Shown here: piece by piece, positions 8,391 to 35,360 of the stretch | How the letters are laid out: every line of letters begins with the position of its first letter | Position numbering within the stretch: position 1 is the first letter of the stretch | Source: an uncultured Paenibacillaceae bacterium | GTDB lineage: Bacteria > Bacillota > Bacilli > Paenibacillales > K13 | Direction of reading: 5' to 3' | Length of the DNA: 64,000 bases | Assembly: GCA_913056365.1 (NCBI GenBank) | Contig: CAJXLT010000001.1 | Span: 682,001 to 746,000 of the forward strand | Program-made: the position numbers and the translations under genes | The notes under the pieces: generated by a model | Told to the model about the DNA's origin: nothing | The model's database searches: none | The model's input: only the letters and a program-made list of their open reading frames with translations

Positions 8391-9683
8391 ATGGCGAAAC
8401 TGTTAATCAAGAACGGCACCTTCATTACGATGCGTAACGACGATGCGGTGCTGAAGGGATCGATGGTCGTAGAGAACGGTCGTATTACATATTTGGGAGC
8501 GCAAGTACCGGAAGGCGAATTCGATACCGTCATAGATGGTACATATAGAGTTTACTTACCGGGCCTTGTCAATACACACGGGCATGCTGCTATGTCGCTG
8601 CTACGTGGCTATGCCGATGATCTGGCGCTTCAGGTTTGGCTGGAGGAGAAGATGTGGCCGAACGAAGCGAAATTCACGGCAGAGGATGTCCAATGGGGTA
8701 CGATGCTCTCAGCAGCAGAGATGCTGTTAAGCGGAACTACGGCCTTCGTCGATATGTATGATCATATGGATCAAGTAGCCGAAGTTGTCGAGCAATCAGG
8801 CATGCGCGGCTGCTTGACCCGGGGGATGATCGGGTTAGTCCCACCAGAAGTGAGAACGGCGAAGCTAGACGAGGCGATCGCCTTCGTCAAAGCTTGGCAC
8901 GGCAAAGCAGACGGTCGGATTACGACGATGATGTCGCCGCACGCCCCGTATACTTGTCCGCCGGAATTCATTCAGGATATCGTTCAGGCTGCGCATGAGC
9001 TGGACCAGCCTATTCATATCCATATGTCAGAAACAGCGCGGGAAGTGGCGCAGAATGTAGAGGATTACGGTGAGCGTCCTGTTCGCCACCTCGAGAAGCT
9101 AGGCGTATTCGAGCGTCCTTGTCTGGTCGCACACGGTGTGCATTTGACAGATGAAGAGATTGCTGTCTTGTCGAAATACGACGTACGTGTGTCTCACAAT
9201 CCAGGCAGTAATCTGAAGCTGGCCAGCGGGATTGCCCGAGTTCCGGAGCTTATGCAAGCTGGCGTGCTCGTATCGTTAGGTACAGACAGCTCTGCAAGTA
9301 ATAACAACTTGGACCTGTTGGAAGAAGTACGCCTTGCCGCCCTGTTGCACAAAGGAATTACGGGAGATCCGACTGCCGTTCCTGCTATGGAAGCGTTGAA
9401 GATGGGTACCGTGTATGGCGCCAAATCAATATGGCTCGATGATGTCGGCACCTTGGAGGTCGGTCAGAAAGCTGACTTTATCTCGATTAATCCGGAAAGA
9501 CTGCACTATTATCCGCATACGAATCTAGTCTCACACCTCGTATATGCGGCGAACTCCGCAGATGTGATGGATGTCTGGGTGGACGGCAAGCAGTTGGTGA
9601 AGAATCGAGAGCTGCTTACATTGGATGAAGAGCGGATCAAACGAGAATTTACAGCCAGCTTCGAGCGTGTGATTGGCGAATGA
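8391..9683 (+). CDS. mtaD: 5-methylthioadenosine / S-adenosylhomocysteine deaminase (amidohydrolase)
   Basis: The 430-residue metal-dependent amidohydrolase matches the MTA/SAH deaminase family, which converts MTA or SAH to the inosine derivatives. Metal ligands are seen in NTHGHAAMSLLRG (H-x-H), HIHMSET and AHGVHLTDEE, and the catalytic aspartate in LGTDSSASNNNLDL. The last two blocks are characteristic of the subfamily. It lies apart from the mtn salvage genes, but MTA is the entry compound of that pathway, so a link is possible. A GGAAAGGGG site precedes the ATG. The stop overlaps the next gene by ATGA. Substrate choice within the family cannot be settled from sequence. Confidence 0.88.
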   Translation: MAKLLIKNGTFITMRNDDAVLKGSMVVENGRITYLGAQVPEGEFDTVIDGTYRVYLPGLVNTHGHAAMSLLRGYADDLALQVWLEEKMWPNEAKFTAEDVQWGTMLSAAEMLLSGTTAFVDMYDHMDQVAEVVEQSGMRGCLTRGMIGLVPPEVRTAKLDEAIAFVKAWHGKADGRITTMMSPHAPYTCPPEFIQDIVQAAHELDQPIHIHMSETAREVAQNVEDYGERPVRHLEKLGVFERPCLVAHGVHLTDEEIAVLSKYDVRVSHNPGSNLKLASGIARVPELMQAGVLVSLGTDSSASNNNLDLLEEVRLAALLHKGITGDPTAVPAMEALKMGTVYGAKSIWLDDVGTLEVGQKADFISINPERLHYYPHTNLVSHLVYAANSADVMDVWVDGKQLVKNRELLTLDEERIKREFTASFERVIGE

Positions 9684-10177
9684 ACGAACGATGGAAGGTA
9701 TGGTCGGCTGTAGTTGCTGTTGCTGGCATAATACTCTTCACCGTTATTTGGTATTATAATGTCATTCAAGGACCGTTGTGGGACGCACAGCAAGCCGCTG
9801 CACAAGTGGCATTGGAGCACACCGAGATTGTGGAAGTGACGGCTGTGGAGGCTTCCTCCAGCGAGAATGCCTATCAAATTGTATATGGTGCAGACCAGGA
9901 GGACGAGGCATGGATCGTCTGGGTCGGGAAGGATGAACTGCATGCGGCTAAGGCCGATGACGGCTTAGCGCATAATCAAGTTCGCTTGCTTATGCAAGAG
10001 AAGGAACCGGAAGCCAAGCTGATCCGTATCGTACCTGGCGTATGGAATGACGAATATGCATGGGAAGTATACTATGAGAAGCGTGAGGACAAGGGGATAC
10101 GGCATTATTATGACTATTACCGCTTCTCGGATGGACAGAAATTGACGACATTACGGCTCAATCTCATACCAGATTAA
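9680..10177 (+). CDS. TseB/YpmB-like membrane-anchored protein (DUF5590)
   Basis: This 165-residue protein has one N-terminal membrane segment (about 7-28) and an extracellular domain of the DUF5590 type found in B. subtilis YpmB (TseB), which influences the penicillin-binding protein PBP2A during wall elongation. The motif NVIQGPLWDAQQAAAQVAL after the membrane helix and the end block EVYYEKREDKGIRHYYDYY fit that family. ypmB lies near dinG in Bacillus, as it does here. Translation is coupled to mtaD by ATGA, and a strong terminator follows. Family assignment is fairly sure; the PBP role is inferred. Confidence 0.75.
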   Translation: MNERWKVWSAVVAVAGIILFTVIWYYNVIQGPLWDAQQAAAQVALEHTEIVEVTAVEASSSENAYQIVYGADQEDEAWIVWVGKDELHAAKADDGLAHNQVRLLMQEKEPEAKLIRIVPGVWNDEYAWEVYYEKREDKGIRHYYDYYRFSDGQKLTTLRLNLIPD

Positions 10178-10254: not shown

Positions 10255-10330
10255 CGTGTGGGTGATTGGAAATCGTTGACTGTGTGCAGTGTCGTATGTT
10301 GTGCCCTTTGCTTCATTATCCCCTTCGCTC

Positions 10331-10510
10331 AGAAGTACTCAAAAGTATTCAGAAATACCTAGAAGTATTCAGAAATACCTAGAAGTACTCAGAAGTATTT
10401 AGAAGCACTCAGAAGTACGCGGAAATATTCAGAAGTAAGTACATAGAAGTAAGTACATAGAAGTACACAGAAGTACTAAGAATTACGCAGAAGTTTTCAG
10501 AAGAATGGAG
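10331..10510. repeat. 10-bp tandem array, consensus AGAAGTACTC
   Basis: From 10331 to 10440 eleven decamers follow one another in perfect register, all variants of AGAAGTACTC (AGAAGTATTC, AGAAATACCT, AGAAGCACTC and so on). From 10431 two 14-base units AGAAGTAAGTACAT occur, then degenerate decamers run to about 10510. The unit is not a multiple of three, so it is not coding. It contains the palindrome AGTACT. The array lies between a terminator and the promoter region of the next operon. Confidence 0.85.
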
Positions 10511-10653
10511 TGTTGTGCACATCAAGCACCTTAACTGTATTCCATTATGCGTGTCTAATTCTATGGTTCATACCAATTAGCATATAGCGGTATATGTGAA
10601 TAACCTCGGCAGACCATTCGGATTAGGTTCGGATCAGATATTCTAACAGATTT

Positions 10654-10707
10654 GCTGAGTGAAGGGGATACCGAATGAAAGCTGAGTGAAGGGGATACCG
10701 AACAAAA
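10654..10707. repeat. 27-bp tandem duplication
   Basis: Two adjacent 27-base copies (10654-10680 and 10681-10707) begin GCTGAGTGAAGGGGATACCG and differ only near the end (AATGAAA versus AACAAAA). Each carries the sequence that is inverted at 10317-10332. Confidence 0.85.
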
Positions 10708-10778
10708 GAGGGGAGGACATGTCCCAAGGCGACCAAGAGTAGGGGAATCTTCCGGTTGTGCTTCCACACTTTACTTGC

Positions 10779-10858: not shown

Positions 10859-11395
10859 ATGAAATTGCGTGTATGGCCTGCTGTCATTAGTCTGGTCCTT
10901 GCAAGCGGTGTTCTATTCGGTGGGTGGTTTGCGTACCATAGCTACGCCGTGAAAAATCCGCTTCATGATCATCTTGCAAGTATAGAAGGAATTCAATCGA
11001 TTGAGTCTGTTACTATCGAACGCGATGCTGTGCACATCACGTTGTCCTTGGAGGATGATGCTCGGCTGCGAATGATAAGAGAACACATTGTTACGGGAAA
11101 TCCGTCTATATTTCAAAAGCGGGAGCTCGTTCTTGACCTGGACATGACATCCAGCGAGCAGCTGGAGCAATGGTGGTCGCAAGCATTATTCGAGGTTGCT
11201 GAAGCGATGGATACTCATCAATACGGCAGTATTCCGAAGGTGCTTGAGGAGCGTGCGCAAGGTGCGTCACATGTGGCAGTTCATACTGAAATGGATGATA
11301 AATATGTATACGTGCAGCTAAGTGACGGGACGTCGACTAAATATATTATGCTTCCCCGCGAGCCCGTCATGACGGGGGTGTGGCCTAATGCGTAA
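10859..11395 (+). CDS. Membrane-anchored protein of unknown function, partner of the short FtsH
   Basis: I do not recognise this 178-residue protein. It has one N-terminal membrane segment (about 5-28) followed by a domain of about 150 residues predicted to lie outside the cell, with alternating beta strands and helices and no cysteine. The end of the gene overlaps the start of the FtsH-like protease by 8 bases, so the two are translationally coupled and probably work together, for example as adaptor or substrate receptor. That role is inference from position only. A GGGGGACG site and a plausible promoter lie upstream. Confidence 0.7.
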   Translation: MKLRVWPAVISLVLASGVLFGGWFAYHSYAVKNPLHDHLASIEGIQSIESVTIERDAVHITLSLEDDARLRMIREHIVTGNPSIFQKRELVLDLDMTSSEQLEQWWSQALFEVAEAMDTHQYGSIPKVLEERAQGASHVAVHTEMDDKYVYVQLSDGTSTKYIMLPREPVMTGVWPNA

Positions 11396-12902
11396 ATGGG
11401 GAAAAGAAATTGCTGTCGGTGTCGTGCCAGCTGTACTTGCTTTTCTATGGTTTATCGGTGTGAATCTCATCCCGATTCTCATTGCGGGTCTGTTCATCGG
11501 CGTATTGATTTATATGGCTCGGGCTAGAGGGATGGTCGGAGCTGGTGTGAAGCATACGGATAAGCCATCCAAGCCCACCTATATGACCTTCGATGAGATT
11601 GGCGGTCAGGAGCGGGCTAAGCAAGAGCTGAAGGAGGCGCTTGATTTCCTTATTAAGCGGGATGAGTTGCATAGACTGGGCATTCGACCGCTGAAGGGGA
11701 TATTGTTGACGGGGCCTCCCGGTACGGGCAAAACCTTGCTTGCCAAAGCTGCTGCCCACTATACGGACTCTGTGTTCGTTAATGCCTCAGGTAGTGAGTT
11801 TGTCGAGATGTATGTCGGTGTTGGTGCGAGCCGGATTCGAGAGCTGTTCAAGGAAGCGCGCACTCGCGCACAGAAGGCGAATAAGGATAGTGCTGTCATC
11901 TTCATTGATGAGATTGATGTCATTGGCGGTAAGCGGGACGGCGGTCAGCATCGTGAATATGATCAGACGCTGAATCAGCTGCTTACGGAGATGGACGGCA
12001 TGAATACGACGGAAGAGCCGCGTATCTTCATGATGGCAGCTACGAACCGTAAGGAAATGCTGGACAGTGCCTTGCTGCGCCCGGGCAGATTCGACCGCCA
12101 TATCGGCGTTGATCTTCCGGATAAGAAGGGGCGTCTGCATATTCTTAAGCTGCATGCGAAGAATAAGCCGCTAGCTGAACAGATTAACTTGCACAAAGTA
12201 GCGGAGGAATCGTTCCAGTTTTCCGGTGCGCAGCTGGAAAGCGTTATGAACGAAGCGGCGATCTATGCGCTGCGGGATGAGGCGGCCATCATCGAACAGC
12301 GTCATCTCGATCAAGCGATTGATAAGGTGATGATGGGCGAGAAGACGGACCGCGAAACGACGAAGGAAGAGAGAGAACGCGTCGCGATTCATGAGCTCGG
12401 TCACGCAATTTCTGCAGAAACTGTGCGTCCTGGCTCCGTATCTCAGGTTGCATTAAGCCCCCGGGGGCAGGCACTTGGGTATGTTCGTCATCATCCGCAG
12501 AAGGATCAGTATCTCTATACGAAGCCGTTTCTTGAGGAGCAAATTATGATCGCACTGGGCGGTGCTGCGGCAGAGGAGATTTACTATGGCGGACGAAGCA
12601 CGGGCTCGCGTAATGACTTCGAGCAAGCGATGCGTGTCGTCCAGACGATGATTGAATCCGGATTAACGGAGCTCGGTATTGTTCATTCCGATATGCTGTC
12701 GAAGGAGCAATGGATGCGTGAGAACAGACGGATTCTGGATGAACTGTTCAGCCGCACTCACCAGTTGCTGGAGGAACGGCGTGACGTATTCGACCGCTCT
12801 CTGGCAATATTAATCCGTGAGGAGTCATTGTCCGGTGAGCAGTTTCGCAGCTTGCTGGCAACTAGCGATATGCAATCACCTGTACCGGTCACAGCTTCAT
12901 AA
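11388..12902 (+). CDS. Short FtsH-like membrane AAA+ metalloprotease
   Basis: The 504-residue protein has the FtsH arrangement: a membrane N-terminus, an AAA+ module and an M41 zinc protease. Walker A is GPPGTGKT at residues 109-116, Walker B is VIFIDEID and the second region of homology is MMAATNRKEMLDSALLRPGR. The protease motif HELGH is at 335-339, with the third ligand likely in SRNDFEQAM. True FtsH proteins are about 620-680 residues. Here the two membrane segments are joined by only a few residues, so the external domain is missing, and the C-terminus is short. It is therefore a paralogue rather than housekeeping FtsH. Its substrate is unknown. It is coupled to the preceding membrane protein. 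Confidence 0.88.
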   Translation: MRKWGKEIAVGVVPAVLAFLWFIGVNLIPILIAGLFIGVLIYMARARGMVGAGVKHTDKPSKPTYMTFDEIGGQERAKQELKEALDFLIKRDELHRLGIRPLKGILLTGPPGTGKTLLAKAAAHYTDSVFVNASGSEFVEMYVGVGASRIRELFKEARTRAQKANKDSAVIFIDEIDVIGGKRDGGQHREYDQTLNQLLTEMDGMNTTEEPRIFMMAATNRKEMLDSALLRPGRFDRHIGVDLPDKKGRLHILKLHAKNKPLAEQINLHKVAEESFQFSGAQLESVMNEAAIYALRDEAAIIEQRHLDQAIDKVMMGEKTDRETTKEERERVAIHELGHAISAETVRPGSVSQVALSPRGQALGYVRHHPQKDQYLYTKPFLEEQIMIALGGAAAEEIYYGGRSTGSRNDFEQAMRVVQTMIESGLTELGIVHSDMLSKEQWMRENRRILDELFSRTHQLLEERRDVFDRSLAILIREESLSGEQFRSLLATSDMQSPVPVTAS

Positions 12903-35185: not shown

Positions 35186-35197
35186 ATGGTGCGGGGA

Positions 35198-35360
35198 AGC
35201 ACTACATCACTTTCGCGTGTGTTTTTGTTGTATGGGCCCCGCGAAAGTAATCGGAATAAGCTGCAAAGCATTACTTCACTTTCGTGGGTGTTTTTTTGTT
35301 GTATGGGCCCCGCGAAAGTAATCGGAATAAGCTGCAAAGCATTACTTCACTTTCGTGGGT
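35198..35360 (+). repeat. Tandem 71-bp terminator-like hairpin repeat before dynA
   Basis: A 71-base unit at 35227-35297 is repeated without change over 63 bases at 35298-35360; a partial, diverged copy lies at 35198-35226. Each unit holds CCCGCGAAAGT, an 18-base central part and ACTTTCGTGGG, which pair as a hairpin. The first full unit ends in seven T residues, like a terminator. In the last unit the T-run is replaced by TTTAATTA, just before the ribosome site of dynA. The intervening loop (CGGAATAAGCTGC) is the same in both. Confidence 0.85.

Follow-up and report, generated by a model that had tools for sequence, protein, structure and literature searches.

The window, which is the whole stretch of 64,000 nucleotides analysed here, belongs to an uncultured Paenibacillaceae bacterium and contains a tandem array of ten-base units enclosed by inverted repeats. 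The question raised by this locus is what such an arrangement represents, the original prediction having offered a cooperative protein-binding array, a block of curved DNA or a small mobile element.

Structure of the window element

The decamer array with a degenerate tail was confirmed by TRF, which reported 17.8 copies at period 10 (score 112) and the same stretch at period 30 (score 126); when the window was dinucleotide-shuffled 100 times, the best score was 76. About ten units stand in register before a unit of 14 bp interrupts them and degenerate units follow (Table 1). The inverted repeats at each side were also verified. They are 27 bp long with 81% complementarity (10306-10332 versus both 10655-10681 and 10682-10708) and have as core the 16-mer CTGAG[C/T]GAAGGGGATA; the doubled right repeat was detected by TRF as a 27-bp tandem at 10654-10708. 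This end repeat (CTGAG-N5-GGGATA) faces outward, with one left copy, two right copies and the array between them. The first decamer unit, CTCAGAAGTA, starts with the CTCAG that closes the left repeat, and the overlap of both is 5 bp.

The element is intergenic, with a TseB-like gene (9680-10177) on one side and, on the other, a 178-aa ORF (10859-11395) for which no Pfam match was found. Downstream of this ORF, at 11388-12902, inspection of the translation by eye revealed an ORF of 504 aa encoding an FtsH-like AAA protease. No transposase ORF and no notable coding capacity were found within 10305-10709, an Rfam search of the element gave no match at E 1, and a consensus scan of it for terminators and promoters gave matches no commoner than in shuffles. 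Its RNA folds better than shuffles (z -4.9), for which the inverted repeats alone can account. Elsewhere in the window, TRF identified a 71-bp tandem repeat at 35197-35360 (2.3 copies, 93% match).

Table 1. Features of the window element (window coordinates)
Feature	Coordinates	Strand	Remarks
Left end repeat	10305..10332	-	Outward reading CTGAGCGAAGGGGATAATGAAGCAAAGG; core is the exact genome-wide motif
Decamer array	10328..10503	none	Unit CTCAGAAGTA on +, CTGAGTACTT on -; begins within left repeat; unique in genome
14-bp unit, 2.5 copies	10431..10465	none	Breaks decamer register (TRF)
Interior, no recognised feature	10504..10654	none	
First right end repeat	10655..10681	+	
Second right end repeat	10682..10709	+	27-bp tandem copy of first right repeat

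The dispersed end repeat and the genes that it encloses

In the genome to which the window belongs (G000; 4.65 Mb, 34 contigs), the 17-mer CTGAGTGAAGGGGATAC gave 54 matches with at most three mismatches, against 14 for the reversed control. The close matches group into about a dozen clusters of the end repeat. In these, left copies lie on the minus strand and right copies on the plus strand, with CTGAG inward, often in tandem at steps of 27-121 bp. The interiors, of about 0.1-1.3 kb, are mutually unrelated and only the end repeats recur. The paired pattern does not hold for L056, where the two copies are in direct orientation, nor for three or four copies that stand alone (L063, L064, L065). 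The direct pair of L056 (2992-3723) has longer flanking similarity and a small ORF between its copies. The decamer unit was not found elsewhere in G000, two matches with three mismatches being no more than in the control. The search for further copies in the genome thus succeeded for the end repeat and failed for the decamer, which was discarded as a dispersed family. In the genome-contig collection, the strict motif pattern was present in 0 stretches.

Three of the G000 clusters enclose genes, encoding proteins of 289 aa (L057), 294 aa (L061) and 276 aa (L068), the latter two being 63 and 49% identical to the first. All three matched the IS1595 zinc ribbon (PF12760) above the cut-off and DDE_Tnp_IS1595 only along its C-terminal 32-37 positions; their scores with the NCBIfam IS1595 model were below the cut-off, and all three lack the D-D-N/E triad. 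No DDE_Tnp_IS1595 match above the cut-off was found in G000. The zinc ribbon was matched by 47 of 47 proteins of set A3 at E 0.01, a set that includes three triad-bearing rows and matches 37 of 398 genomes in the class. Among Pfam and NCBIfam models, only those of IS1595 and zinc ribbons matched notably. Plasmid records yielded 295 matches, all below 60% identity; 17 of 20 among the matches listed carry an annotation, in all cases as IS1595 transposase. Only two weak matches were obtained in phage records.

From 156 loci, 142 that were complete enough or kept as controls were aligned and 14 were dropped. Both catalytic D residues were present in 6 of the aligned proteins and neither in 123, while 13 had D1 alone. 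Seven of these 13 have the motif at both sides, the other six being outgroup or truncated controls, and the D retained by seven triad-less members counts against the reading that we prefer below. The 127 triad-less proteins formed one group in a tree of 138 rows calculated by a quick method with no bootstrap (SH-aLRT 99, stem 0.67). Five paralogue pairs from G013, G023 and G030 had dN/dS values of 0.14-0.26, and 28 pairs among eight G002 copies had values of 0.049-0.212 (median 0.104). In these tested pairs, the triad-less clade is under purifying selection. The orthologue pairs L057/L123 and L068/L144 showed saturated dS, with dN of 0.21 and 0.26, respectively. The AlphaFold model of one triad-less protein, L253 (pLDDT 91, pTM 0.88), retains the strand-helix order of the RNase-H core, with G143 at the D1 column, and its residues 117-269 or 137-269 aligned with moderate Z scores to Hermes (10.1) and retroviral integrase cores (about 8-9). 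The best Foldseek match was ISCth4 (E 5.9e-3), with none at 0.001, and a sequence search of the PDB gave no relevant match. The loss of the catalytic residues in a protein that is still conserved suggests a transposase reused as a DNA-binding protein.

Other reduced genes of this type were observed. L152 (731-1726, G000:C5) and L153 (438-1574, G001:C61) carry an IS1595-like zinc-ribbon gene without recognisable catalytic core and without the motif, adjoining the same MarR-like gene in both species, which is perhaps a separate domestication. Short zinc-ribbon IS1595-like ORFs, likewise without the motif, adjoin an MFS transporter gene at L163, L164 and L165 (G023, G006 and G036, of one genus).

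The origin of the repeat was indicated by triad-bearing sister insertion sequences of about 1.0 kb (L142, L282, L293, L294, L303, L327 and L331). All seven carry the motif once per end with at most two mismatches, L303 having one extra weak match; the notion that triad-bearing relatives lack it was discarded, as the criteria of one mismatch and flanks outside the ORF had been too narrow. Target duplications of 8 bp were found at L327, between copies of TTTTTATT, and at L303, between copies of TAAATAAT, and none was evident at the other five. Duplications of this length are described for IS1595 (PMC8101967). Since triad-bearing elements have the motif once per end, the end repeat is most simply regarded as the ancestral terminal inverted repeat of an IS1595-type lineage, multiplied in the triad-less clade. 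The predicted mobile element therefore stands as to origin, with IS1595-type terminal repeats and a short repeat-free site in the sister species.

Most simply, the former transposase would still recognise its multiplied ends through its DNA-binding part. We consider it somewhat probable that the window element is a gene-less member of a system that goes back to an insertion sequence of the IS1595 type, and that the triad-less protein of this system would bridge the repeats. The proteins from the three other G000 loci would bind the end repeats through the zinc ribbon and a helix-turn-helix region and, once bound, would bridge the two sides, so that the repeats, and not the interior, would be kept. 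Local slippage beginning in the inner CTGAG of the left end repeat would have produced the decamer array, which may provide additional half-sites. New sites may have been reached by past or trans transposition, or by ectopic recombination. A protein-binding role, as was predicted, is plausible for the end repeats and not for the decamer specifically.

Conservation and turnover among relatives

In a survey of 60 genomes, including that of the window, a homologue of the gene was present in 21 and the strict motif matched one or more times in 34, the reversed control giving 0-2 matches per genome. At least five copies of the motif were found in 10 genomes, all of them with the gene, and none of the 39 gene-less genomes reached five (highest, 4). 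Among the best 80 of 484 loci, the relatives named were mostly Paenibacillus and Cohnella, together with Ammoniphilus and a few other Paenibacillaceae or Bacillales. In these 80, which include a few triad-bearing loci, the core motif, sought within 700 bp with no more than one mismatch, was outward 207 times and inward 5 times, versus 1 in shuffles; any copy was present at 73 and copies at both sides at 51. A separate set of 71 loci of relatives, in which L225 duplicates L125, had 180 copies outward versus 2.

After removal of known duplicates, the 127 triad-less loci had 330 outward and 2 inward end repeats. Any copy was found at 111 loci, copies at both sides at 87, at least two on one side at 58 and at least three at 26. 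The motif extends to another family of the same class, in which L326 lacks the triad and carries it on both sides. The core motif is missing within 700 bp at 16 of the 127 loci, and this counts against the preferred reading. Fourteen of the 16 belong to one subclade. Its flanks have in common the words CTGAGCAG, CTGA-N5-GGGAA and ATCA-N5-GAAAG, which are far more frequent there than in shuffles, as though the repeat had changed along with the protein.

The comparison of the empty site in relatives, proposed in the original prediction, could be carried out with the sister species G001; the 60 genomes include no further member of the genus. At the window site G001 has a short intergenic region, with 158 bp between aligned blocks versus 585 in G000, and no motif. 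The conservation of the window cluster itself is thus unsupported, which also counts against the preferred reading. G001 is likewise short and motif-free at L060 (136 versus 410), at the gene-bearing L061 (190 versus 1547) and at L062 (127 versus 574); with a single outgroup, a gain in G000 looks the same as a loss in G001. No target duplication was seen at the empty G001 sites, whose flanks are strongly diverged. Both species have an occupied site at L057, L064, L066, L067 and L068. In the gene-less pairs L066/L156 and L067/L154, motif and place are kept and the interiors have turned over, the motifs lying within non-aligning stretches. A lone end repeat was observed at the same place in G000 (L064, 2371) and G001 (L157, 2747).

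The empty site, the terminal repeat common to triad-bearing insertion sequences and the lack of notable coding capacity would also fit a decaying MITE. The element would then be non-autonomous and of IS1595 type, formerly moved in trans by an intact transposase and now inert, and the minisatellite inside it would be accidental. However, cluster interiors are mutually unrelated, which those of copies of a single MITE would not be, the motif persists in both species at two gene-less clusters despite their non-aligning interiors, the end repeats are multiplied in tandem and G000 has no DDE_Tnp_IS1595 match above the cut-off, so that we regard this alternative as rather unlikely.

In G002 the loci are amplified: at sites unrelated to each other, stretches of about 1.4-1.6 kb are 82-89% alike. 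Some members have therefore spread, which would not be expected of a dead enzyme and counts against the preferred reading, that of a triad-less protein bridging the repeats. Homology between the copies extends about 100-150 bp beyond the motifs and stops near A-tracts and hairpins that by eye resemble host terminators. At L206-L219, the copies end at A-tracts followed by locus-specific hairpins, as if insertion had occurred at intrinsic terminators. A polymorphic insertion between G023 and G030 was discarded, L193 and L148 being at the same place in both; L193 carries an internal deletion in G030 and L148 meets a contig end.

Locus-private arrays and comparison with known systems

A TRF survey of arrays with periods of 7-15 bp (the range searched) and scores of at least 80 yielded 36 arrays in the 256 kb lying no more than 1 kb from triad-less genes and 4 in 258 kb farther away, the density of locus-private arrays being about nine times higher beside these genes. 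None was found at neighbour-gene loci (101 kb), at triad-bearing or outgroup loci (47 kb), in the remaining window or, at this score, in the other gene-less G000 clusters. Arrays were present at 22 of 130 loci, or 20 of 127 once three duplicates (two of them array-bearing) were removed. As arrays are enriched and their units differ from locus to locus, the decamer exemplifies a property that recurs, and its length of ten is not part of this property. In 4 of 30 arrays (the window, L138, L244 and L305), the array starts at the inner CTGA(G) of the end repeat and overlaps it, sharing its first 5-8 bases. The remaining 26 have no such overlap; seeding by the repeat is not the rule, a further point against the preferred reading.

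It is very unlikely that the array is an independent helix-phased protein-binding or curved-DNA block with the inverted repeats as incidental neighbours. About ten units do keep a 10-bp period in register, but the array overlaps the left repeat and is found nowhere else in the genome. The idea of one unit per helical turn on the same DNA face did not prove general, related loci having units of 7-15 bp, and curvature by A-tracts is unsupported, the array having no run of five or more A. Still less credible is a plain minisatellite born of chance slippage and unrelated to the element, which the unit's uniqueness in the genome would allow, but which agrees neither with an array that starts on the left repeat's inner CTCAG, as the arrays of L138, L244 and L305 do on their own repeats, nor with the enrichment of such arrays at triad-less loci.

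The system resembles IS1595 insertion sequences in its zinc ribbon, the C-terminal part of DDE_Tnp_IS1595 and the terminal repeat CTGAG-N5-GGGATA, and differs from them by the absence of the triad, multiplied repeats, gene-less clusters and unrelated interiors. The window locus has terminal inverted repeats and no gene, like a MITE, whereas window-type clusters have no shared interior, no target duplication seen and ends in tandem. With VNTRs it has in common a tandem array. Tn7 and Mu have several outward-facing sites per end, resembling the present repeats, but their transposases are catalytic. RAYT (TnpA-REP) and REP/REPIN systems (PMC8266576, PMC3116915) combine a domesticated transposase with extragenic repeats that are dispersed, inverted and akin to its ends. 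Here too, dispersed end-derived repeats are linked to a conserved transposase gene. However, RAYT is an HuH/Y1 enzyme and the present protein has a zinc ribbon and an RNase-H fold; in addition, the REP palindrome of 20-40 bp is missing and the repeats stand in outward clusters far apart.

We tentatively propose, with doubt still slightly outweighing belief, that the dead DDE clade is a chromosomal DNA-binding protein of Paenibacillales which bridges amplified paired terminal-repeat arrays, both gene-bearing and gene-less, at loci that breed private minisatellites, and that it is the DDE counterpart of RAYT/REPIN. No literature on this system was found in open-access papers, and the case of a domesticated bacterial transposase with dispersed repeats that was found in them is the HuH/RAYT group (PMC8266576). 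If the proposal is true, a catalysis-dead DDE lineage under purifying selection with multiplied ends would be a second case, independent of HuH/RAYT, and would offer a direct way to ask for the function of domesticated-transposase and repeat systems. The locus-private arrays would be a natural experiment on the birth of minisatellites beside repeated putative binding sites.
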